A stretch of DNA of 64,000 bases, taken from assembly GCA_944393005.1 (NCBI GenBank), contig CALXYO010000001.1:186001-250000 (forward strand). Reading direction: 5' to 3'. A program made the translations under genes and the position numbers. Below are positions 9,979 through 22,590 of this stretch, piece after piece (within the stretch, counting starts at the first letter, position 1; each line of letters starts with the position of its first letter). Origin of the DNA: an uncultured Spirochaetales bacterium. Its GTDB lineage: Bacteria; Spirochaetota; Spirochaetia; Sphaerochaetales; Sphaerochaetaceae. The notes under the pieces are model-generated. The model saw nothing but the letters and a program-made list of their open reading frames with translations, was not told where the DNA came from and made no database searches.

Positions 9979-11023
9979 TTGCCTTTCTTCCTCCCTGAAG
10001 CTTGATTCTCGGATCAAGCACGACATACAGCACTTCGGCAAGGAAATTGCAAAGAACTATTGCAGAAGTCATTATGAGGAAAATACCCTGCATCAGAGGA
10101 TAATCCCTTCCGTTTGTGGCATTAAGCAGTTCCAGTCCTATACCCTGATAGACAAACAGCTGTTCGATTATCAGGGATCCACCGATTATGAAACCCAGTC
10201 TCATTGCGAATTCCGTCACGATCGGCAGCATCGCGTTACGTCCTATGTAATTGGTGAGTATGGTCGATGACTTCAGCCCCCTCACCTTCGCTATCGTGAC
10301 ATAGTCGGTATTGAGAGTGCTTGTCGTGCTGCCCTTCATGAGCAGTATCCAGATACCGAGCTGTGAGAACATGTATGTGAGGATGGGAAGAAGACCATGA
10401 AGAAGGACATCCTTTATGAAAACCATATTCCAGCCGGGTGTGACGAACATGGAATAGTTTCCCCTCAGCGAGGTGATCGGAATTATCGTATGACCGGTTC
10501 CGAAGGTGAAAACACCGAAAATAAGCAGGAGGAAAATGGCAATGAGAAAGTCCGGAATCGCACTGAGAAACGAGGCAAAGCCAGATACAAGCGGCTCATA
10601 CCACTTGTCTCTCTTGAACGCCATAAGTGTTCCCAGCACTATACCTATTATAAAAGAAGACAGAAGCCCCAGTCCGACAGTAAACAAGGTCCATGGCAGT
10701 CTTGCAGCTATGATTGACATAACATCGACACCCGGGGAAAGGAGCGACTGTCCGAAATCAAGATGAACAACATCCTTCAGGAAGGATATGTACTGAGTGA
10801 GGATCGGCTCATCAAGCTCCATTGAGAAAAGAGACTGAGCCCTCAGTGTGGCCTCTTCGTATCCGATACCGTAAATGATCATCTGCTCTTCTATGTAACG
10901 GTCTACCGGATTGGACGGCATAAGCCTTATCAGAACGAAAATCAATGTAGTGACAACCCATATCGTGAAGATCATCTTGAAGATTTTCTTAAGCAGATAC
11001 CTGAGTGTGGAATTCATGACCAT
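9971..11023 (-). CDS. Peptide-type ABC transporter permease (DppB/OppB-like)
   Basis: 350 residues with the DppB/OppB layout: an N-terminal helix (KMIFTIWVVTTLIFVLIRLM), then RLMPSNPVD, a periplasmic domain and five further helices. It forms the translocation channel with the DppC-like subunit. Two ATGs (11023 and 11017) are close. The first has GGAGGT 11 bases upstream. The second makes an ATGA overlap with the ROK gene stop. Either way the gene is coupled to the regulator. Confidence 0.88.
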   Translation of the reverse strand: MVMNSTLRYLLKKIFKMIFTIWVVTTLIFVLIRLMPSNPVDRYIEEQMIIYGIGYEEATLRAQSLFSMELDEPILTQYISFLKDVVHLDFGQSLLSPGVDVMSIIAARLPWTLFTVGLGLLSSFIIGIVLGTLMAFKRDKWYEPLVSGFASFLSAIPDFLIAIFLLLIFGVFTFGTGHTIIPITSLRGNYSMFVTPGWNMVFIKDVLLHGLLPILTYMFSQLGIWILLMKGSTTSTLNTDYVTIAKVRGLKSSTILTNYIGRNAMLPIVTEFAMRLGFIIGGSLIIEQLFVYQGIGLELLNATNGRDYPLMQGIFLIMTSAIVLCNFLAEVLYVVLDPRIKLQGGRKANG

Positions 11024-12063
11024 CGCTTCTCAATACCTCCGACAATTTCCCTGACATAGGAATCCGCACCGATGAGGGCGGCACCGCATGCAGGCGCTGA
11101 GAAATGGGGCTCGCATTTGAGTTCAGCCGTACAGGGAAGAGATGAAAGGACCCTCTCAAGCTGTCTCATATCATCATTACTGACAGCGGAAAAAGCATTT
11201 CCGCATATGATCAGCTTCACGGGATTCAGCAGATACGCAGTCATCTTCATATGGTTCAAAAGTTTTTCAACAACAGGAACCAGATTGTCCCTGACACCGA
11301 ATTTTGATTCTTTGAGAAAAGAATCCTTTTCATAGTATTCACCGGCACACCCGTCAGAACCCCGGAAAAGCTTTCCCTCAATGATCAGTCCCAATCCTAT
11401 TCCGAAAGGCTGGTCATTAAGTACGTACGTGACTGTCGTTACATTTTCATATTTATCTTTATTCTTTGTGTAGTAATAAATAGCGGCACAGTTGGCATCA
11501 TTTTCCACTATGATCTCATACTCAGGATACCTCTGCCTTATTTCTTCTACGAAATTCGCGATATCCCAATGCTCTTCAGCCCCGCTCTCAGTATGCCTCA
11601 CACCCGACTCAAGATGTCCGTCATTATGTATTATGCCTTTGACGGCAATGGCGATCTTCTTTATCTGGGGATATGCTGACAGCTTTTCATCAATCCCTTT
11701 ATAAAGTGTCTCGATAAGCTTGTCCGCTTCAAAGCATATCCTGCTTTCCTCAAGCTCCTCCCCGTCCAGTCCGTATACAAACAGCTCAACGGCATTGTCA
11801 ATCAGATAAATACCGAGAAAACATGCCGCCTCATTGTTCAGGCTTATTGCGAGTCCGGGCTTGCCTGCTTTCCTGCCACTGCTGGCTGCCTTGCCGCTGT
11901 CCTTGATGAAATTGAATGTTCTCAGATCATTTATCAGATACGAGACAGTGGAAGCCTGAAGACTGCATATTTCCTTCAGCTCTGCCTGCGTTGTCACCTT
12001 GCGTGTACGCAGTACATCAATAATTCTCAAGAGATTGTTGTGTCTCTCATTCTGCTTGTTCAA
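11014..12063 (-). CDS. ROK-family transcriptional regulator
   Basis: 349 residues. An N-terminal winged helix-turn-helix (about 10-60, LLRIIDVLRTRKVTTQAELK) is joined to a ROK sugar-kinase-like domain (from about 80) that senses a sugar ligand. The canonical ROK ATP and zinc motifs are weak, so it is a regulator rather than a kinase. It starts at a TTG with AAAGG just upstream. As first gene of the operon it probably autoregulates and responds to an amino sugar released by the GH20 enzymes (inference). A 17-bp dyad lies 33 bp upstream. Confidence 0.85.
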   Translation of the reverse strand: MNKQNERHNNLLRIIDVLRTRKVTTQAELKEICSLQASTVSYLINDLRTFNFIKDSGKAASSGRKAGKPGLAISLNNEAACFLGIYLIDNAVELFVYGLDGEELEESRICFEADKLIETLYKGIDEKLSAYPQIKKIAIAVKGIIHNDGHLESGVRHTESGAEEHWDIANFVEEIRQRYPEYEIIVENDANCAAIYYYTKNKDKYENVTTVTYVLNDQPFGIGLGLIIEGKLFRGSDGCAGEYYEKDSFLKESKFGVRDNLVPVVEKLLNHMKMTAYLLNPVKLIICGNAFSAVSNDDMRQLERVLSSLPCTAELKCEPHFSAPACGAALIGADSYVREIVGGIEKRWS

Positions 12064-12233: not shown

Positions 12234-12263
12234 TTGACAGTTTCTGAAATCCCCTAATAAGAT
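12234..12263 (+). promoter_or_regulatory. Promoter of the orphan RNA
   Basis: A perfect -35 TTGACA (12234-12239) is followed after 18 bases by TAAGAT (12258-12263). It points away from the ROK operon and toward a region without ORFs. The predicted start is near 12270. Confidence 0.6.
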
Positions 12264-12269
12264 GTAAGC

Positions 12270-12504
12270 ACAGGGAGGCAATAGAGAAAAGAACTCTAGC
12301 AGCTCATATAAGGAAAAGCATCATAAGCCCATGATGGTGAGTAAACCGGAAAGGATAGCTTGGTGCTGACAGACATGAGCAGGCTGCCAGAATGAGAACC
12401 CATCTCTATTATAAAGAACAAGCCTCCAGGACAGATGAGAGCCCGGACAATTGTTCATGAAACAAAGTGAACGATAATGAATAAGTCCGGGCTGTATTTT
12501 TATT
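12270..12504 (+). ncRNA. Structured non-coding RNA of unknown family
   Basis: A stretch of about 235 bases has its own promoter and a strong terminator, and no ORF. The fold is regular. GGAGGC (12274-12279) plus AATAGAGA (12280-12287) pair with TCTCTATT (12403-12410) and GCCTCC (12422-12427), leaving an 11-base one-sided bulge. Inside, GCTCAT (12302-12307) pairs with ATGAGC (12375-12380), extended by AGC/GCT. CATCAT (12319-12324) and ATGATG (12331-12336) form a small hairpin. AGCATCA (12317-12323) can pair instead with TGGTGCT (12361-12367), so two conformers are possible. The long rod with closing ends recalls 6S RNA in outline only. I do not recognise tmRNA, RNase P, SRP RNA or a known riboswitch. 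Confidence 0.55.
12440..12504 (+). terminator. Terminator of the orphan RNA
   Basis: AGCCCGGAC (12440-12448) pairs perfectly with GTCCGGGCT (12485-12493). A nested 7-bp hairpin lies inside (12451-12457 with 12468-12474), and a T-rich tail (12496-12504) follows. It lies 48 bp from the convergent flavoenzyme gene. Confidence 0.75.
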
Positions 12505-12552: not shown

Positions 12553-14493
12553 TCAGATATCAAGTGCTGCATGGTACCCCTGATAGATAGCTGCCGTGAT
12601 ATTCGCCACTCTGGAACAGTCTCCAATTTCACGAACCCAGGGAGCAGATGTACGCAATGCTTCGACACATGCTCTCTCTGATACTTGTCCTGCGGCACAT
12701 ATTACGCTCTTTCCTGAAACAAGTTTTTCTCTGCCTGAGCTATCCATGCATACTACGCCGTCATCTGTTACCTTTACAGCAGTATGATTCAGGAAAACCG
12801 ACGCATATTTGTTGACCATATCCATAAGAATGGGACGATGTCGGATATTGCAGTCCGGTGCCAGCTGATTCCTCATCTCAACGATGGCGACTTTATAGCC
12901 TTCCATACCGAGATGAACCGCGCACTCACAGCCTGCCAGTCCACCGCCAAGGACAACGACAGTATCAGCAACGCTGTTCTTTCGCAGATAGTAGTCATTG
13001 ACTATGATGACATTATCTCCGTCAATTCCATCAAGCGGAGGAATGACAGGCCTGCTTCCGACCGCTATGATCAGGGCCTCGGCCTTAAGATCCTCAATGA
13101 GCTCAGGCGTTGCCTCTGTATTCAGCCTCACCTCCACCCCTGCAAGACGGGCCTGCCGCTCCAGTGTCAGTCCAAGCCGGTACATTTCATACTTGAACGG
13201 AATTGCCTGCTCACTGACAAGGATTCCTCCAAGCACATCTTTTTTCTCCAGCAGCGTGACCTGATGTCCGCGTCTGGCTGCAATTATGGCTGCCTCAAGA
13301 CCGCCAACACCTCCTCCTGCAACAACAACCTTCTTCCTGCAGGGAGCTGGTGTAAGATGAATTCCTTCTATCTCACGTCCTATAAGAGGATTGACAGCAC
13401 AGCGTCTCGTACCGGTTGCGGGACGTTCGGCCATGCAGGTGAAGCAACGCAGACAATGTACAATCTCATCCTCACGCCCGGCAATAACCTTATTGGGCAG
13501 TTCATGATCAGCGAGCAAAGCTCTGGCCATTTCCACAACATCTGCCTTGCCTGAGGAAATAATCTCTTCCATCTGAGCCGGATCATTCAGGGCACCTATA
13601 GTAGCGACAGGTCTGGAAACATGTTTTTTTATCTCGGCTGCCAGCCAGACATTATCACCATGGGGTGCGAACATCGGCAAATGAGTCCGGAAGAAGCCGA
13701 ACTGATAGCTGCCTGCCGACACATGTATAAGATCAGCAAGATCCTCAAGCCCCTGTGCAATTGCAATACCACCATCAATATCGTATCCGCCTTCAAAAAA
13801 CTCAGCTCCGCTCATACGCAGCTCAATCGGGAAACCGTCCCCTACCGCATCTCTGACCGACTGCAGCACGCGACGCGCAAAACGGAGCCTGTTATCCAAG
13901 GATCCCCCGTATTCGTCATTACGGTGATTGAAAGCAGGAGAGAGGAACTGGTTGATCAGCCAGCCGTGACCGGCATGAACCATGACCATCTGGAAACCTG
14001 CACGTTTCGCCAGAGCCGCACTCTCGCCGTAGGAACGTATGATATCATCAATCTGCTGGGCAGTGAGCGCTTTGACATGAATGCCGTCAGGACGTACCCA
14101 GTCGCTGGGTCCATATTGCGTCAATCCATGTTTTCTGTCCTTATCGATGAGATAGGTACCAGCATATTGTCCGCTGTGGCTCAGTTCGACGCTGGGCACA
14201 GCTCCATGCCTTGAAATTGAATCAGCTACGAATGTCCAGCTTGCCAGACAGCCAGGAGTCTTCAAATCAAGATGAAACATATGGGAGGCATCTGTCTGTG
14301 GATGTACGACAAGCTCGCTGGCGGTTACCGCCGCAGCCCCGCCCATTGCCCTCAGCTCATAAAAGCCTGGCGTTCTGGGACCGACACAGCAGTCAGATGT
14401 GATATCGGTTCCACCCATGGGGGCAGAGAACATCCTGTTACGGAATGTGATGTTGCCAAGCCTGATCGGCTCGCACAAATGCGGATATTTCAT
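12553..14493 (-). CDS. Fe-S flavoenzyme, old yellow enzyme/2,4-dienoyl-CoA reductase type (FldZ/BaiCD-like)
   Basis: 646 residues in three parts. An N-terminal TIM-barrel ene-reductase domain carries the HAGHGWLINQFLSP and EYGGSLDNR signatures. A cysteine cluster near residues 340-360 (CLRCFTC, then RRCAVNP) supplies a 4Fe-4S ligand set. C-terminal FAD and NAD(P) domains follow, with GGGVGGLEAA and GGGLAGCE. Such enzymes reduce an activated C=C bond with NAD(P)H, for example cinnamates or bile-acid enones, and often serve as anaerobic electron sinks. GAGGGT lies 9 bases before the ATG. A terminator separates it from the esterase gene, so it is transcribed separately, but it continues the same catabolic cluster. 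The true substrate is unknown. Confidence 0.85.
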   Translation of the reverse strand: MKYPHLCEPIRLGNITFRNRMFSAPMGGTDITSDCCVGPRTPGFYELRAMGGAAAVTASELVVHPQTDASHMFHLDLKTPGCLASWTFVADSISRHGAVPSVELSHSGQYAGTYLIDKDRKHGLTQYGPSDWVRPDGIHVKALTAQQIDDIIRSYGESAALAKRAGFQMVMVHAGHGWLINQFLSPAFNHRNDEYGGSLDNRLRFARRVLQSVRDAVGDGFPIELRMSGAEFFEGGYDIDGGIAIAQGLEDLADLIHVSAGSYQFGFFRTHLPMFAPHGDNVWLAAEIKKHVSRPVATIGALNDPAQMEEIISSGKADVVEMARALLADHELPNKVIAGREDEIVHCLRCFTCMAERPATGTRRCAVNPLIGREIEGIHLTPAPCRKKVVVAGGGVGGLEAAIIAARRGHQVTLLEKKDVLGGILVSEQAIPFKYEMYRLGLTLERQARLAGVEVRLNTEATPELIEDLKAEALIIAVGSRPVIPPLDGIDGDNVIIVNDYYLRKNSVADTVVVLGGGLAGCECAVHLGMEGYKVAIVEMRNQLAPDCNIRHRPILMDMVNKYASVFLNHTAVKVTDDGVVCMDSSGREKLVSGKSVICAAGQVSERACVEALRTSAPWVREIGDCSRVANITAAIYQGYHAALDI

Positions 14494-14562
14494 AATCGTT
14501 TTACCCTCAATGACATTTCAATGAATAGTTTTCATATGATCTGAATATGATTCGCCACAACA

Positions 14563-14596
14563 GAAAAGCTCCATACTGCATTGGGCAGTGTGGAGC
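14563..14596 (-). terminator. Terminator after the esterase operon
   Basis: A 12-bp stem with one T:G pair (14568-14579 with 14585-14596) and a 5-base loop. On the minus strand it is followed by TTTTCTG. It lies 21 bp downstream of the esterase stop. Confidence 0.7.
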
Positions 14597-14616
14597 ATGA
14601 TTTCAGCTGGCAAAGC

Positions 14617-16338
14617 TCAGACAGCATCAGATCCCATGTACAGCAGTTTCCCATTCACTTTGGAGAACTTCGACATGAACTGATCCCAGGAAGCCCAGCT
14701 CTCACCGGGGTAATTGGCATGACTCATATCACGCACAGTGCCCACAGTCAGCATCGGAACTTTCCTGCTGTTGAGATAGACGTAATAGCTGATTTCACCG
14801 CAGGTGTACTTCAGCGGCTTCTCATCCAGAGCATATATTTTCATCAGATTCCTGAGAAATGAAGCGATGTCATGAGCCGCATGATACTCAAGCTCTCCAT
14901 GCTCAAGGTCTGCACACAGCCAGTCTTTCTCTCCGAAAAGAAAGAAAAAAGGTACAGCCGGATCTATTTTCTCAGGCAGACAAAGCTCTTCATCTGGACT
15001 TACAAGAGCCGACCATGGAGCCACTGCCGCGAAAACATCCGGAGTCTTCTGGGCAAGTGTCGAGGTCATCATTCCTCCGCTTGACTGACCACAGGCGTAT
15101 ATGCGGCTTTCATCAATGCAGCAGCGGGACTTCACGTCATCGATAATTGCAAGGATGAACTTCACATCGTCAATCTTCTGACCTTTGTAGGATCCTTCCC
15201 ACAAGAGAAGATTTCTCAGAGCTCCCGGTTTCTGCTGCGAGACACATGCCTCGGGGAACACGACAATAAAATCTCTCTCTTCTGCCACGCGGCTCATATC
15301 TGAAAGACTGATGAAGCTTTCTGCACTGCCTCCTCGCCCATGCATGCAGACTACAAGAGGAGCGCTCTTGCCGCTCTCTGCCACACGTTTTGGCACATAT
15401 TCATACCACAGACGTGTCCAGCCATCCATTTCCATCGTGTGACGTGTGAAGCCATAGGCGGCAGGATCAATACGGCGGCGCAGCTGCTTGGTGCCGAAAC
15501 CGCGGTGCCGGCAAGCCTGATTCAGATAATTCCAGACTGCGTCCAGGAACGGAGATTCCAGTCGTCCTTCATACCCATTTGTAACACGGACCTGTGCTAT
15601 GTTCTCCTCATTTGTCTGACTTTTGAGGCAGACACTTGAGGGAAAATGGATCTCATCAGCCCACTGGCTGGAAAAACACTCGTCTGTGCATGCGTTGTTA
15701 GTCATCCAGTAGCTGAATGCAGCTTCATTGGCTCCCTTTTTCATTTTCCAGGCCATCCACACAGGTACCGCAACCTTCGCTGCGGAAATCACAAGTTCTG
15801 TCTTGCCTGTGTTCTGTGCCCCTGCGCTTGTTGTTCCGTTGAAAGTCACCTTGTCATCAAGATCTCCGAACGTAGCCAGTCCGGACCACTCACTCGACAT
15901 CTTCATGACGGCCTGCTGTGCAACGGTTGCCCCTCTGTCAACACCGAAAGCATATATATTGTCCTGCATGGTAACATAGCCGCGACGTCCATTGATCTGC
16001 ACATATACCCGGTTCATGTAGTCGGCATCATCTCCGTCAGGACTCCAGCCTCCGGGGCCGCTAACCAGCACATGAAGGAACACATGATGTCTGTCGGCAA
16101 AATCAAGCCACGGACTGTGCTCAAGATAGTCAGTAGCACTTTCAGTGTCCGGTGCTGCGACCACCACGCAGGGCTGGTTGTAAACAAGCCCCTCAGTGAT
16201 ATATGTATAGAAAGTACGGATCTTGCCGTTTACTTCCACAGACTCCTCGAAAAGTCCATTGACCAGACACCTGCGAGGCTCATTATGGTCCACACCCAGG
16301 ACACTCATGTCCCGTGGGAAAGTTTTTACTTCAAGCAT
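14617..16338 (-). CDS. PHB-depolymerase/feruloyl-esterase-like hydrolase with unusual N-terminal half
   Basis: 573 residues. The C-terminal half (from about 310) is an alpha/beta hydrolase of the PHB depolymerase/LpqC/feruloyl-esterase type. It has an HGRGG oxyanion segment, the nucleophile Ser in GQSSGG, and a late Asp and His region. The N-terminal half (about 1-280) also looks like a degenerate hydrolase-type domain (FADRHHVFLHVL, then GPGGWSPDG) without a clear catalytic serine. There is no signal peptide, so it is cytoplasmic. AGGAG lies 9-10 bases before the ATG. It sits 28 bp after the SLC13 transporter gene, implying that it hydrolyses an imported ester. That is inference from context. 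Confidence 0.75.
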   Translation of the reverse strand: MLEVKTFPRDMSVLGVDHNEPRRCLVNGLFEESVEVNGKIRTFYTYITEGLVYNQPCVVVAAPDTESATDYLEHSPWLDFADRHHVFLHVLVSGPGGWSPDGDDADYMNRVYVQINGRRGYVTMQDNIYAFGVDRGATVAQQAVMKMSSEWSGLATFGDLDDKVTFNGTTSAGAQNTGKTELVISAAKVAVPVWMAWKMKKGANEAAFSYWMTNNACTDECFSSQWADEIHFPSSVCLKSQTNEENIAQVRVTNGYEGRLESPFLDAVWNYLNQACRHRGFGTKQLRRRIDPAAYGFTRHTMEMDGWTRLWYEYVPKRVAESGKSAPLVVCMHGRGGSAESFISLSDMSRVAEERDFIVVFPEACVSQQKPGALRNLLLWEGSYKGQKIDDVKFILAIIDDVKSRCCIDESRIYACGQSSGGMMTSTLAQKTPDVFAAVAPWSALVSPDEELCLPEKIDPAVPFFFLFGEKDWLCADLEHGELEYHAAHDIASFLRNLMKIYALDEKPLKYTCGEISYYVYLNSRKVPMLTVGTVRDMSHANYPGESWASWDQFMSKFSKVNGKLLYMGSDAV

Positions 16339-16366
16339 AGCTGTTCACTCCTGTTCAATTACCGCA

Positions 16367-17656
16367 TTACGGATACATCGGGAAAACAGTCATTATCCAC
16401 GAGACATTGACAACACACAGCAGGATGGCAGGGATGACAGACTGCCTGATGATAGACTTCAGATCATAGCCACCGTTGGCCATGCACATCGGGATGGCAG
16501 GTGTGGCCATAGGAGTCATGAATGAGCTGAGGCAGGCTGACTGAACCAGAAGAACGATTCCCACAGGATTAGCACCCATTGCCTTGCATGCGAGGATTGC
16601 AATCGGGATGAAGATTATGATGACGGTTCTGTTCATCATGACCTGAGTGAGCAGGAACGGAACGAGGAAGAAGACGAAACCGATCAGATACGGGTTGGAC
16701 AGTCTGTTGGCGAAGCTGGCAAGTATGCCTCCGACAACCTCTCCTGCTCCGGTCTGACTGAGAGCTCCACCCATCGCAAGGGATCCGACAAAGAGGAATG
16801 CCATAGGCAGATTGACTGCTGCGACAGCTTCCTTCTCTGACAGAACTCCGAACAGGACCATTGCAACAGCACCGGTCATACAGATCACCCAGGTCTGGAT
16901 TCCGAGCTGCGGCTGGAAAAGCAGGGCAAGGGTTGTGACGATGAATATGATGTAACCTGCACGTTCCTTGAAAGGAGACAGTGGCTCACGCTTGTCAGCG
17001 CGGCTCTCAATGGCTTTTCCCTTAAGGGGAGACTCTGCCGGGCTGAATTTTGTAGAGAAGAACACACAGTAGATGAACATCACGATCATGGACGGAAGAC
17101 GGGCTTTCATGCAGTCGGTCAGTGCCACCGCATATGTTGTGTAATCGTTTGCTTCAAGATAGCCGTTCATCTCGGCAAATACCGTTGCTCCGGCACCAAG
17201 TGGCAGAATTGATACAGTTGAAATACAGGCGATGGCAATCGGGAACAGCACCTTGGACGGACTTATGTTCATCTCCTCACAGGTTGCGATAAGCATCGGT
17301 GCCATAATACCATAGACGATAACAGAGCTCTGGATGAACTGTGACAGCAGCATCGTGATCAGGATATAGCCGAACATGACGCGTGTCAGGGATCCCTTCG
17401 CAATACGGTTGACACTGGCAGCGACCTTGCGTACGAACTGTGTCCGGTTGAAGCCTGCTGCAACAACGAACATCGACATCATCATAAGGCCATTGGAATT
17501 GCCGAAATACCCTGCGGCTGTGGCAGGATCCAGACAGCCTGTGAGCACAAAGGCCAGCATGCTGACCAGAGCAGTCAGTCCCATCGGCCACTTGCCGATG
17601 ATGTAACTGACCATTGTGAGGACACAGATAATCAGACAGATTACTAAGTGACTCAT
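16367..17656 (-). CDS. SLC13/DASS-like organic anion transporter
   Basis: 429 residues from the ATG at 17656, chosen because AAGGAG lies just upstream; an in-frame start 30 bp earlier lacks a site. About ten to twelve hydrophobic segments arranged as two repeats are present. They include re-entrant-like motifs (SSVIVYGIMAPM in the first half and LTQVMMNRTVIIIF in the second) of the divalent-anion/citrate superfamily. It probably carries a carboxylate across the inner membrane with Na+ or H+. It is the first gene before the esterase. One copy of the 39-bp LysR-linked repeat lies 112 bp upstream, which suggests induction by the LysR protein. Confidence 0.78.
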   Translation of the reverse strand: MSHLVICLIICVLTMVSYIIGKWPMGLTALVSMLAFVLTGCLDPATAAGYFGNSNGLMMMSMFVVAAGFNRTQFVRKVAASVNRIAKGSLTRVMFGYILITMLLSQFIQSSVIVYGIMAPMLIATCEEMNISPSKVLFPIAIACISTVSILPLGAGATVFAEMNGYLEANDYTTYAVALTDCMKARLPSMIVMFIYCVFFSTKFSPAESPLKGKAIESRADKREPLSPFKERAGYIIFIVTTLALLFQPQLGIQTWVICMTGAVAMVLFGVLSEKEAVAAVNLPMAFLFVGSLAMGGALSQTGAGEVVGGILASFANRLSNPYLIGFVFFLVPFLLTQVMMNRTVIIIFIPIAILACKAMGANPVGIVLLVQSACLSSFMTPMATPAIPMCMANGGYDLKSIIRQSVIPAILLCVVNVSWIMTVFPMYP

Positions 17657-17767
17657 TTTTCCTCTCCTTTTTGTATTCTGTTTCAAAGTAACAGGAGTCC
17701 GCTGTAATTTCGCAGTGACCCTCCCGTCTGTTCACAATTTCATTATGGACTGCATTCAATCAGCAGA

Positions 17768-17806
17768 CAAATTTATAATCCTAATGTTTGTATAAATAAA
17801 ATTTAT
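17768..17806. promoter_or_regulatory. LysR-linked 39-bp repeat, copy 1
   Basis: This matches 34 of 39 bases of a copy at 19424-19462 next to the lysR gene. The core is a dyad, ATTTAT-N15-ATAAAT, as expected for LysR recognition. It lies upstream of the SLC13 gene and downstream of the dehydratase gene. Confidence 0.6.
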
Positions 17807-17814
17807 CGAAATGC

Positions 17815-17844
17815 TGTCTGCAGGAGCCATTTCTCCAGCAGACA
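17815..17844 (-). terminator. Candidate terminator of the dehydratase gene
   Basis: An inverted repeat TGTCTGC-A-GGAG / CTCC-A-GCAGACA with a 6-base loop lies 12 bp beyond the dehydratase stop. The sequence after it on the minus strand is only weakly T-rich (GCATTTCG), so efficiency is uncertain. Confidence 0.4.
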
Positions 17845-17855
17845 TACACGTTTAT

Positions 17856-19358
17856 TTATACAAAGCGGCATACATGATCGACAGCAATGTCGGAAAAACC
17901 GTAAGCTTCCGCTTTGGTGAGTTTGCCATTGCTGATTGCGACAATCTCATCCAGAAGTTCTTTCCCCATTTCCTCACTGGTCTTCTCTCCCCTGATAATC
18001 GGGGAAAGGTCGTAGTCCATATTGTCTTCCATGTGCTTGTATGTGTATTCGTTCGCGGTGACCTTCATGACAGGTACAATGGCATTGCCGGTCGGTGTGC
18101 CGCGTCCTGTGGTGAATATGACAACCTGACAGCCGCCAGCCACCATAGACGTGACAGAAGAGATGTCATATCCGGCGGTGTCCATGACAATTGCACCGTG
18201 CCTTGCCGGACGTGCGGCCTGCTCCAGGACCTCGACAATCGGCCTTTTGCCACCTTTGCGGATACAGCCAAGACTCTTCTCGTCCAGCGTGGAAAGTCCT
18301 CCTGCCTTATTGCCCGGGGTCGGCTGACCTGCACGGCAGTCCTGTCCGGCTTTCATGAGATGTTCTTCATATGCCCGGCATACTTCGATGATCTCATTGT
18401 GGATTTCCGCGTTCGCTGCCCTCCTTGCAAGAACATGTTCACCTCCGATCCACTCAATTGACTCACTGATCATACTGGTTGCACCGTAGTCCACCAGAAG
18501 ATCGCTTAACTCTCCGACAGCAGGATTGGCCGCAATGCCGGAAGTGGCATCAGAACCTCCGCACTCAATGCCCAGGAACAGCTCGGAAATATCGAAAAGT
18601 TCCTTCTGCTGCAAAGCTGCCTGTGCAGTCATCTCACGTGCTGCCCTCACTGCTTTCTCGATAGTCTTGACGGTTCCGCCTTCCTCCTGTATTCCAAAGG
18701 ATACGACAGGCTTGCCCGTCATCTTCTGAATCTTCTCCTTCAGCTGCCTGTGACCGACAGTCTCACAGCCCAGACCGATGATGACAACACCATAGACATT
18801 CGGATTGCAGGCGAAACCGGTGAGGACCTTCTGGCTCATGTCGGTGTTGGCTGCCACATCCGAGCATCCGGTGTTGAAAATGATGTTCACTGCGCCACTG
18901 ACCTGTGAGGCGACAATGCGTGCAGACTCGCTGCCACATGCACAGCCGGGTAAAATCAGCACATGATTCCTGATACCCGGACGGCCCTCAGTCCTCCTGT
19001 AGCCCCAGAATTTGATGCCCTCCTTTGTTCTACTGAACTCAGGAACAGGTTGACCATCCTCCGGTACCAGCTCGCTGTCATAGTCGCGGGGCACACTGTG
19101 TATGTTCTCATGGTTGACGAGATGTCCACGGGCTATTGGCCTGCTGGTCTGTCCGATCATCTCGCCATATTTGGTGACAACTCCGCCTTCAGGTAAATCG
19201 ACAAGGGCAACTTTATGGCAGGACGGTATATCTTCACCGGCTATGAGTGTGACTGTTCTGTCTCCATCCTGATAGACAATCTCATCCCCTGCCGCCACAT
19301 CGGTTACGCAGGTGACCACATTGTCCTTGCTGTCCATCATAAGCGCATTAACTTGCAT
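17856..19358 (-). CDS. UxaA/GarD-family hydratase-dehydratase (altronate/galactarate type)
   Basis: 500 residues. An N-terminal SAF domain (about 1-90) is joined to the large altronate/galactarate dehydratase domain beginning near KFWGYRRTEGRPGIRNHVLI. Conserved features are the GCACG segment, HRQLKEKI, GIECGGSDATSG and the C-terminal MVAGGCQVVIFTTGRGTPTG. Family members remove water from sugar acids (altronate, galactarate), and split relatives are sulfolactate sulfo-lyases, using a metal. The substrate here is not decidable. GGAGGAG lies before the ATG. The gene is divergent from lysR with a 39-bp repeat copy between them, which marks it as the primary target of that regulator. Confidence 0.85.
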   Translation of the reverse strand: MQVNALMMDSKDNVVTCVTDVAAGDEIVYQDGDRTVTLIAGEDIPSCHKVALVDLPEGGVVTKYGEMIGQTSRPIARGHLVNHENIHSVPRDYDSELVPEDGQPVPEFSRTKEGIKFWGYRRTEGRPGIRNHVLILPGCACGSESARIVASQVSGAVNIIFNTGCSDVAANTDMSQKVLTGFACNPNVYGVVIIGLGCETVGHRQLKEKIQKMTGKPVVSFGIQEEGGTVKTIEKAVRAAREMTAQAALQQKELFDISELFLGIECGGSDATSGIAANPAVGELSDLLVDYGATSMISESIEWIGGEHVLARRAANAEIHNEIIEVCRAYEEHLMKAGQDCRAGQPTPGNKAGGLSTLDEKSLGCIRKGGKRPIVEVLEQAARPARHGAIVMDTAGYDISSVTSMVAGGCQVVIFTTGRGTPTGNAIVPVMKVTANEYTYKHMEDNMDYDLSPIIRGEKTSEEMGKELLDEIVAISNGKLTKAEAYGFSDIAVDHVCRFV

Positions 19359-19423
19359 AGTATCTCCTCCACCAGCTTTAAATCTGGGTTCTACTTTACT
19401 TTGTGCTGTTTTCAGGCTATAGT

Positions 19424-19462
19424 CAAATTTATATTCTTAATGTTTATATAAATCATATTTAT
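19424..19462. promoter_or_regulatory. LysR-linked 39-bp repeat, copy 2 (divergent promoter region)
   Basis: Second copy of the repeat found at 17768-17806, differing at five positions. It has the same ATTTAT-N15-ATAAAT core. It lies between the dehydratase start (66 bp away) and the lysR start (16 bp away), the usual place for autoregulation and activation of the divergent gene. Confidence 0.65.
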
Positions 19463-19478
19463 ATTCAGGAGAAAAAGA

Positions 19479-20429
19479 ATGTCGCCAGAGATGAAGTACA
19501 TTTTCACAGTCTATCAGGAAGGCAGCTTCTCAAAAGCAGCGGAGAAGCTCTTCATCACCCAGCCGGCACTGAGCATAGCCGTGAAAAAAGTGGAAGATGA
19601 AATCGGCATGCCTCTGTTTGACAGAAGGCGCAAACCGCTTAAGCTGACGGAGGCGGGAGAAGTCTATATTGATACGATAAAGAAAACCCAGCTGCTGGAA
19701 ATGGAAAGAGACCAGAAACTGGACGACATCAAAAATCTCTCGACAGGTCTTGTCAGGGTTGGAGGCACTCATTTCCTTAACGCATATATTCTTCCTCAGT
19801 ATTTTGCCGAATACAGCAGAAAGTATCCCGGTATCACTCTGACAATCTATGAGCGGAGCTCCTTTGAGATGGAAAACATGCTGTCATCCAAAGACATAGA
19901 TCTGACTTTCAGCTGCAATCCGGAAGAAATAAGAAAGTTTCCGAACATCAGAATGTTCGAAGATCACGTAATATTTGCAGTGCCTGTAAATGACAGCTTC
20001 AATGACAGGTACAGGGAAAAGGCCCTCAATGCCGCAGACATCATCGCAGGCCGCCATCTCAAGCCTGATACACCGAAACTTTCCATAAAGGAAATCGGAG
20101 ACCAGGAGATCATACTCCTGAGAAAGGGAAACAATCTATATGAGAGAGTTCTGCAGATGTACAGAGATGAACACATTGAACCCAATGTCAGGCTGGACCT
20201 CAATCAGCTGGTCACAGCATATCACCTGGCAGAAGCTGGAATGGCATCTGTTTTCACGAGCGACAGGCTGGTGAAGAAGTGGGACGACCGTCTTCTCTTC
20301 TACCCTCTTGCTTCTCCTCTGTCGTCACGTACCTTTCACATCCTGCTTGCCAGCAATGCCTATGTACCGATTGCAGTGCAGAAGATGGTGGATCTGCTCC
20401 AGAAGCCCGTTCTGAATGATGCAATGTGA
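19479..20429 (+). CDS. LysR-family transcriptional regulator
   Basis: 316 residues. The N-terminal helix-turn-helix is typical (GSFSKAAEKLFITQPALSIA, about 12-31), followed by a linker helix and a periplasmic-binding-like effector domain from about residue 88 (TGLVRVGGTHFLNAYILPQY). AGGAGA lies 6 bases before the ATG. It is divergent from the UxaA-type gene. The two 39-bp repeats suggest that it controls both the dehydratase and the SLC13-esterase unit, probably sensing a carboxylate. Confidence 0.88.
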   Translation: MSPEMKYIFTVYQEGSFSKAAEKLFITQPALSIAVKKVEDEIGMPLFDRRRKPLKLTEAGEVYIDTIKKTQLLEMERDQKLDDIKNLSTGLVRVGGTHFLNAYILPQYFAEYSRKYPGITLTIYERSSFEMENMLSSKDIDLTFSCNPEEIRKFPNIRMFEDHVIFAVPVNDSFNDRYREKALNAADIIAGRHLKPDTPKLSIKEIGDQEIILLRKGNNLYERVLQMYRDEHIEPNVRLDLNQLVTAYHLAEAGMASVFTSDRLVKKWDDRLLFYPLASPLSSRTFHILLASNAYVPIAVQKMVDLLQKPVLNDAM

Positions 20430-20510
20430 AATGTGTCAAGATCTTCTTAAATTCAGACACAAACCAGTCATTATCAGTCAAAGTGTCTTTTTCTAAACCT
20501 GTTTCATGAA

Positions 20511-20516
20511 TATAAT
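20511..20516 (+). promoter_or_regulatory. -10 element placed for a leaderless start
   Basis: A perfect TATAAT ends 7 bases before the ATG at 20524. There is no Shine-Dalgarno and no good -35. The expected transcript start falls on or next to the ATG. Confidence 0.5.
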
Positions 20517-20523
20517 CACTGGC

Positions 20524-21075
20524 ATGAATATCCGTTTTGCGACAAAGGAAGACGCACCTGCCATCCTTGACATCTACAATCAGTATATCGAAACTCCCAT
20601 CACATTTGAAACGGAGCTTCCATCTCTTGAGGAATTCACAAGCCGTATCGAGACTTATTCCTCATTCTATCCTTATCTTGTTGCTGAAAATGAGGAAGGA
20701 AAGATCACAGGCTATGCATATGCCCACAGGATTTTCGAACGCTCAAGCTACCGCTTCGATGTGGAAACCACAATATATGTCTCTCAGGAGGCGCATCACA
20801 ACGGAACGGCGAAAATGCTTTATGAAAGGCTTTTCTTCTATCTTGAGAAAATGAATGTGGTCAATGCATATGCGCTTGTGACGGGCCCGAACAGGCAGTC
20901 AATCCATTTTCACAGGAAATGCGGCTTCAAGGACTTTGCGACATTCAGTGAAAGCGGAATAAAGGATGGAAAGTGGATTGATGTCATCTGGTTCATCAAG
21001 GTGCTGAACGGGAAAAGCAGCAATCCACCTGAACTGAAAGGCATAAAAGAAGTCCTGGCTGAGCAGGACTTCTGA
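20524..21075 (+). CDS. GNAT acetyltransferase, phosphinothricin acetyltransferase-like
   Basis: About 183 residues, full length for the Pat/YncA group. It begins MNIRFATKEDAPAILDIYNQY. The acetyl-CoA loop region is around the segment with QEAHHNGTAKML, and the C-terminal part has FHRKCGFKDF. It acetylates an amine using acetyl-CoA; the substrate is unknown. The start at 20524 fits the family better than the in-frame ATG at 20506, which lies ahead of the -10 element. The gene end overlaps the guaB terminator hairpin. Confidence 0.8.
   Translation: MNIRFATKEDAPAILDIYNQYIETPITFETELPSLEEFTSRIETYSSFYPYLVAENEEGKITGYAYAHRIFERSSYRFDVETTIYVSQEAHHNGTAKMLYERLFFYLEKMNVVNAYALVTGPNRQSIHFHRKCGFKDFATFSESGIKDGKWIDVIWFIKVLNGKSSNPPELKGIKEVLAEQDF
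21044..21073 (-). terminator. guaB terminator embedded in the GNAT coding end
   Basis: A perfect 10-bp stem, AGAAGTCCTG (21048-21057) with CAGGACTTCT (21064-21073), has a 6-base loop. It is followed on the minus strand by TTTTAT. It lies within the last codons of the convergent GNAT gene, so coding and termination sequence are shared. Confidence 0.7.
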
Positions 21076-21078
21076 ATT

Positions 21079-22590
21079 TCATTTGATTTCGAATTTCTGA
21101 TGGTCCTTGAGGACGACATCGTGGGCACCGCCCTCGACTATTGAAGTCGGGCTGACTATTGTCAGCTTGGCCTTAGCCTTGAACTCATCAAGATTGAGTG
21201 CTCCGCAGTTGCACATCGTTGACTTGATCTTCAGTATGGTCAGTGCGACATTCTCCTTCAGGCTTCCGGCATAAGGAACGTAGGAGTCGACACCTTCAAC
21301 GAAGCTGAGCTTCTTGTCACCGCCAAGATCATAGCGCTGCCAGTTGCGTGCACGTGCTGAACCTTCTCCCCAGTATTCCTTCATATAATTGCCGTTTATT
21401 GACACAAGATTTGACGGAGATTCATCAAAACGTGCGAAATAACGGCCGAGCATAAGGAAATCCGCACCCATGGCAAGCGCAAGCGTCATATGATAGTCGT
21501 AGACAATTCCGCCATCCGAGCAGACAGGAATGTAGACACCTGTCCTCTGGAAATACTCATCACGGGCCCTTACGACATCGATAAGCGCACTTGCCTGACC
21601 GCGTCCGATTCCCTTTGTCTCTCTCGTGATGCAGATCGAGCCGCCGCCGATACCGACTTTCACGAAATCGGCTCCGCACTCGGCAAGGAAGTTGAAGCCA
21701 TCGGCATCAACAACATTTCCGGCACCGACCTTCACACTGTCCCCGTATTTCTCCCTGATCCATGAGAGTGTTCTCTGCTGCCACTCTGAGAAACCTTCGG
21801 AAGAATCTATGCAGAGGACATCCGCACCTGCATTTACAAGAGCAGGTACCCTTTCCTCATAATCTCTGGTGTTTATACCGGCACCTATGATGTATCTCTT
21901 GTACTGATCAAGCAGTTCGTTGGGATTTTCCTTGTGGATTGAATAGTCCTTCCTGAAGACGAAGGCCACAAGATGTCCGTCTTCAGTGACGACAGGAAGC
22001 TGGTTCAGCTTATGCTCCCATATGATGTCATTTGCCTGTGAAAGAGTTATTCCTTCCTTTCCCATTATGAGCTTGCTGAACGGAGTCATGAATGACTCAA
22101 CCTTCTCGTCTCCGTTCATCCTTGAGATTCTGTAATCCCTGCTGGTCACGACACCGAGAAGCTTTCCGTCGCTCTCACCGTTGTCAGTAACGGCAATGGT
22201 AGAATGTCCTGTCCTCTTAGTAAGGGAAAGAACATCATTCAGCGTGGCATCCGGCTTGATGTTGGAATCTGAAACAACGAAACCGGCCTTATAGCTTTTT
22301 ACACGTGCGACCATCCTTGCCTCGTCTTCCACGCTCTGTGAGCCGTAGATGAAGGCAAGGCCTCCTTCACGGGCCAGTGCCTGTCCCATCTTCTCGCCGG
22401 AAACGGCCTGCATGATGGCACTCACCATCGGGATATTGAGTGTGAGCGGACACTCCTCCTGCCCCTTTCTGTATTTCACGAGCGGGGTTTTCAGTGAGAC
22501 GTTCTGTGGAATGCACCGGGATGAAGAATAACCGGGGATAAGCAGGTATTCTGAAAAAGTCCTGCTCAGCTCTTCGTAATAATAAGCCAT
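21079..22590 (-). CDS. guaB: Inosine-5'-monophosphate dehydrogenase
   Basis: 503 residues. It oxidises IMP to XMP with NAD+, the committed step to GMP. A TIM barrel is interrupted by two CBS domains (about 105-225). The catalytic Cys lies in GGGSICITR and the Arg-Tyr pair of the flap in NWQRY. The flap ([16 protein letters not shown]) differs from the common RGMGS form but keeps the essential dyad. AAGGAG lies 8 bases before the ATG at 22590, so the longer 22638 start is rejected. It is a single gene with its own terminator. Confidence 0.93.

Follow-up and report, generated by a model that had tools for sequence, protein, structure and literature searches.

Several well-described bacterial RNAs share parts of their plan with the locus reported here. 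6S RNA is encoded by an independent gene and folds into a rod-like interrupted hairpin with a central bubble; the bacterial small SRP RNA is a stable structured RNA; Hfq-dependent trans-encoded sRNAs have their own promoter, an intrinsic terminator and an adjoining unpaired conserved stretch, and the position next to the terminator is a common place for an sRNA seed; CsrB/RsmZ-type RNAs are purine-rich and titrate CsrA through GGA motifs. The element described below lies in a 64,000-nucleotide stretch of DNA (the window) from an uncultured Spirochaetales bacterium. It resembles 6S RNA in gene independence, outline and length, SRP RNA in being structured and in superficial CCGGAAAGGA and AGCAGC strings, Hfq-dependent sRNAs in its promoter, terminator and neighboring unpaired stretch, and CsrB/RsmZ-type RNAs in its purine-rich composition with some GGA. 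We conclude that positions 12270 to 12504 are probably a free-standing gene for a trans-acting structured noncoding RNA, belonging to an undescribed family that occurs in a single gut-spirochaete clade.

The RNA locus has a promoter and an intrinsic terminator

A sequence-only reading of the window had proposed an orphan, strongly structured RNA at this locus, with its own promoter and terminator and antisense to neither neighboring gene. The fold, the homologues, the covariation and the absence from Rfam all support that proposal, and the strand of the flanking genes agrees with it. The locus is composed as follows.

11014 to 12063, minus strand: ROK-family regulator gene, divergent flank (Pfam PF00480)
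12234 to 12263, plus strand: sigma-70-type promoter TTGACA-N18-TAAGAT, with TTGAC(A) upstream of the RNA in 10/10 homologues
12270 to 12504, plus strand: predicted transcript of about 235 nt with rod-like body, linker and terminator (from the fold z-score, homologues and covariation)
12440 to 12500, plus strand: intrinsic terminator, AGCCCGGAC/GTCCGGGCT with a T-rich tail (from sequence and fold)
12553 to 14493, minus strand: Oxidored_FMN/BaiCD-like flavoenzyme gene, convergent flank (Pfam PF00724; NCBIfam BaiCD below cut-off)

The proposed promoter is present and scores 10/12, with TTGACA at 12234-12239, an 18-nt spacer and TAAGAT at 12258-12263; the -10 element is poorly conserved among the homologues. 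The promoter spacer (12234-12250 in the window, and the same place in homologues) carries a recurrent A-tract, e.g. TTGACAGTTTCTGAAAT, which forms an imperfect TTTC..GAAA palindrome in several species and is possibly a regulator site. At the other end, the 9-bp GC-rich terminator stem that had been described pairs AGCCCGGAC (12440-12448) with GTCCGGGCT (12485-12493) and is followed by GTATTTTTATTT. A simple terminator scan misses this terminator because its long loop holds a second hairpin. In most homologues the linker is likewise followed by a GC-rich stem and a T-rich tail. The putative transcript ends, 12270 and 12504, were placed from the promoter and the terminator.

Homologues are confined to one clade

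The host genus consists of Candidatus Aphodenecus and relatives (Spirochaetales), for which 16 species, represented by 16 genomes, were examined. When 41 genomes were searched at the nucleotide level, G012 and G009 had close copies of the RNA, while the copies in G007 and G004 were distant. A covariance model built from five sequences (R1) matched nine of the 16 genus genomes (E <= 4.2e-9), and a second built from nine (R2) gave a weak match in G014 (E 0.0069). This last match lies between pdxA and GNAT/guaB, is preceded by CTTGACAG and ends in GTACAGATGAGTGCCCGG; because it shares the neighborhood, the promoter element and the linker motif, we count it as the tenth member. Homologues are thus found in 10/16 species of the genus, nine of them strong and the tenth resting on synteny, promoter and motif. 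Each carrier genome has one convincing copy. Applied to 139 genomes of the family and 345 sampled from the phylum, R2 yielded nothing else that was convincing, and collections of plasmids, phages and viruses held no match to the RNA.

In a tree of guaB, a branch supported at 100/99 separates the ten carriers from the four non-carriers that have guaB. G010 and G013, which have no R1 or R2 match, also lack a guaB match and so are absent from the tree. The carriers therefore form one supported clade, and all ten of its species have kept the RNA, although the clade is narrow and three of these RNAs are nearly identical copies.

Rfam scans gave no match to the RNA at the gathering thresholds and a best relaxed match of E = 0.41, so no Rfam family fits it; RNase P and tmRNA gave no sign here in these scans, and we found no description of such an RNA in the literature searched. 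On good comparative evidence, the family is real, undescribed and narrowly distributed, while its kind, the independent structured bacterial RNA, is already known.

The RNA folds into a single covarying rod

The predicted fold has an energy of -72.8 kcal/mol, against -48.9 +/- 4.4 for dinucleotide shuffles (z = -5.5, 0/200 as good); the reverse strand is less stable (z = -3.5). The fold is closed, as had been read from the sequence, by a split pairing of 14 bp, in which 12274-12287 pairs with 12403-12410 and 12422-12427 around a one-sided 11-nt bulge (12411-12421). The consensus is a single long interrupted hairpin with helices P1 (GGAGGC/GCCTCC), P1b, P2 (CTC/GAG), P2b (GCAGCC/GGCTGC), P3 (GCATC/GATGC), P3b (NNGC/GCNN) and P4 (GG-loop-CC). 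In the window these elements, with the changes seen among homologues, are the following.

12274 to 12279, plus strand: P1 5′ arm GGAGGC, pairs with 12422-12427; double-sided change in 4/6 pairs
12280 to 12287, plus strand: P1b 5′ arm AATAGAGA, pairs with 12403-12410; double-sided change in 6/8 pairs
12294 to 12296, plus strand: P2 5′ arm CTC, pairs with GAG 12394-12396; double-sided change in 3/3 pairs, 100% paired
12299 to 12304, plus strand: P2b 5′ arm GCAGCT, pairs with GGCTGC 12382-12387; near-invariant, 94% paired, zero double changes
12317 to 12322, plus strand: P3 5′ arm AGCATC, pairs with GGTGCT 12362-12367; double-sided change in 2/6 pairs
12325 to 12328, plus strand: P3b 5′ arm AAGC, pairs with GCTT 12358-12361; double-sided change in 2/4 pairs
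12336 to 12347, plus strand: P4 apical hairpin GGT-GAGTAA-ACC; double-sided change in 2/3 pairs
12411 to 12421, plus strand: one-sided bulge between P1b and P1; length and sequence vary among species

The P4 loop reads mostly N(A/T/C)GTAA among species. P2b is near-invariant, and covariation therefore neither supports nor opposes it. The minimum free energy fold of the window's own genome (G000) prefers another register there (TAGC/GCTG with GCTCAT/ATGAGC), one that finds no support in the more distant species.

Covariation was assessed on nine homologues fitted to the covariance model. Across the 36-pair structure, 90.7% of cells were paired and 19/36 pairs had double-sided changes, compared with 80.9% and 8.1 pairs in the shuffled control; sliding the partner by 1-3 columns left 33-42% paired and 2-7 double-changed pairs. 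In a tree-aware null of 1000 simulations, 0/1000 reached the observed value on each of the three measures, and the null maximum was 14 double-changed pairs. Because a model-fitted alignment leans towards the structure, the count was repeated for the four outer helices on an alignment that MAFFT built from sequence alone, where 85.4% of cells were paired and 10 pairs were double-changed, with 0/500 shuffles as high. Related genomes thus hold the homologues with compensatory changes that the sequence-only reading had named as its check. The conserved, covarying secondary structure, as it appears in these alignments, is that expected of an independent structured noncoding RNA gene.

These results bear on the possibility that the structure arose by chance, or that the transcript doubles as an mRNA for a small ORF. 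Short ORFs can indeed be read in single species, but none is common to the homologues, and the covariation exceeds everything in the tree-aware null. We regard this explanation as highly improbable.

The covariation also bears on a claim that the RNA has two exclusive conformers, suggestive of a switch. The 7-bp pairing of 12317-12323 with 12361-12367, which had been called an alternative, does exist in the sequence, but it is the conserved, covarying helix P3. Its supposed competitor, a small hairpin (12319-12324/12331-12336), has zero double-changed pairs and a pairing level equal to that of shuffles. By eye, it can form only in G000-type sequences and in G004, whose version (CATCCG/CGGATG) the alignment does not line up. 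Since the small hairpin lacks covariation and P3 covaries, the shared structure is one rod rather than two states, and the two-state switch is not supported.

The RNA is independent of its neighboring genes

Most carriers have a pdxA-family gene divergent from the RNA gene, with guaB nearby. What follows the RNA differs: a GNAT gene directly downstream on the same strand in G007, G015, G008 and G014, a convergent guaB directly after it in G004, and another gene intervening before guaB in G001 and G011, while flavoenzyme or other genes have entered the locus in G000, G012 and G009. In the window, several genes, among them those for the BaiCD-like flavoenzyme (12553-14493) and an esterase-like protein, separate the RNA from guaB (21082-22428), and no pdxA neighbor lies upstream; in several relatives the GNAT gene alone occupies the RNA-guaB interval. 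From this arrangement, the region at about 12553-22428 looks like an insertion or rearrangement at the site.

The GNAT acetyltransferase genes raise the question of a cis-acting leader or riboswitch that controls the downstream gene by alternative folding, and such an element could end in a terminator, as this one does, and could use the two conformers of the earlier description. However, the other six species differ downstream, several with convergent genes, and the hairpin needed for the second conformer does not covary. When the truncated RNA was folded in silico, no antiterminator pairing appeared, and the linker and terminator arm were largely free of the body. As the RNA and its terminator are kept while the genes downstream differ, a gene of its own is favored over a leader, which we consider very unlikely. 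A leader of GNAT or pdxA was rejected on synteny, there being no constant co-directional downstream gene, and a riboswitch was rejected with no conserved, mutually exclusive conformers found.

The RNA is distinct from 6S RNA and SRP RNA

The rod-like outline had been likened to 6S RNA. The outline is real, but identity with 6S does not hold, since the true 6S gene of this genome lies elsewhere. The host family possesses 6S RNA, and within the genus RF00013 scores below its cut-off; the family's 6S block CTTGAAC..GTTCAAG is present in 15/16 genus genomes. In G000 this block lies inside a weak RF00013 match at C1:304436-304608, and an alignment there confirmed the 6S blocks CTTGGCTCAAA, GGAACAGAA and CCCCCTTGAAC..GTTCAAGAG, all absent from the window RNA, which is therefore not 6S. 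The true 6S at this place reaches 11.9 bits, where the gathering score is 46.4; the 6S of the genus is so divergent that automatic annotation would call it absent.

Some bacteria have two 6S genes, and a related idea is that the window RNA is another 6S-like molecule, one that would bind RNA polymerase. In its favor, the RNA is a rod about as long as 6S, has an internal loop at its center and comes from an independent gene that has a promoter and a terminator of its own. However, the window RNA has no RF00013 match at the gathering threshold or at relaxed E, R2 does not match the 6S genes of the host family, and the conserved blocks of the genus 6S gene are lacking. The part that varies least is not a central bubble but the unpaired 3′ linker, which lies outside the rod. 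We consider a second 6S quite unlikely. SRP RNA (RF00169) was rejected more simply: the covariance model finds no match here, the true copy lies elsewhere in 16/16 genomes (C10:105262-105359 in G000), and homologues of the window RNA do not conserve the CCGGAAAGGA string.

An invariant unpaired linker points to a conserved partner

Two unpaired elements are invariant among the ten sequences.

12371 to 12374, plus strand: AGAC of the central internal loop, unpaired and invariant in 10/10 sequences
12428 to 12439, plus strand: unpaired linker AGGACAGATGAG, of which ACAGATGAG is invariant in 10/10 (from the ten-homologue comparison and the predicted fold)

The linker ACAGAUGAG (10/10), which joins the closing stem to the terminator, is the most conserved feature of the RNA, and it is still predicted to be largely unpaired when the 3′ arm of the terminator is removed in silico.

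A short, unpaired and invariant stretch beside a terminator, in an RNA with its own promoter, could be the seed of a base-pairing sRNA that acts on several mRNAs, which forms one branch of the explanation we favor. Against this branch, Hfq was matched in 0/16 genus genomes, with control genomes positive, and the body is larger and more structured than is typical of Hfq-dependent sRNAs, a class we rejected for this RNA. Perfect 11-mer complements of the linker near start codons did not recur among the loci checked, a limited test that covered full-length perfect complements as opposed to shorter or G-U-containing ones. The linker also has no complementarity to a Shine-Dalgarno sequence. A base-pairing role is possible but doubtful.

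Titration of CsrA by GGA motifs, in the manner of CsrB, would account for the purine-rich sequence and its several GGA triplets, but CsrA is matched in 0/16 genus genomes, with control genomes positive, and GGA counts are near expectation, hence unenriched, in most species. We rejected this type and give it a negligible chance.

Discussion

The linker and AGAC are invariant, Hfq and CsrA were not detected in the genus, no complement recurs at the sites checked and no ORF is shared; we therefore favor a trans-acting RNA that contacts a conserved partner. We propose that the RNA would be made from its own promoter and end at the intrinsic terminator, and that its 5′ two thirds would fold into the interrupted P1-P4 hairpin, which may protect the molecule and display its unpaired elements. 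Two parts most likely do the work: the AGAC of the central loop, and the invariant linker, kept open with the closing stem on one side and the terminator on the other. With these the RNA may act in trans without Hfq or CsrA, through protein binding or short base pairing with RNA, and as the partner of the linker and central loop a protein is somewhat likelier than a set of mRNAs. We speculate, while considering it unlikely in this specific form, that the molecule is an abundant, clade-specific RNA of the housekeeping type that forms a stable ribonucleoprotein with a protein bound through the linker and central loop.

Retention of an RNA in every species of a clade, despite shuffling of the surrounding genes, usually signals a worthwhile function. 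The alignment, the consensus structure and the invariant linker are enough to build a new RNA family and to look for the transcript and its partner. A genus in which neither Hfq nor CsrA is detected raises the question of how its RNAs regulate, and if the ribonucleoprotein reading is true, this RNA would represent a new mode of RNA-based control in such bacteria.
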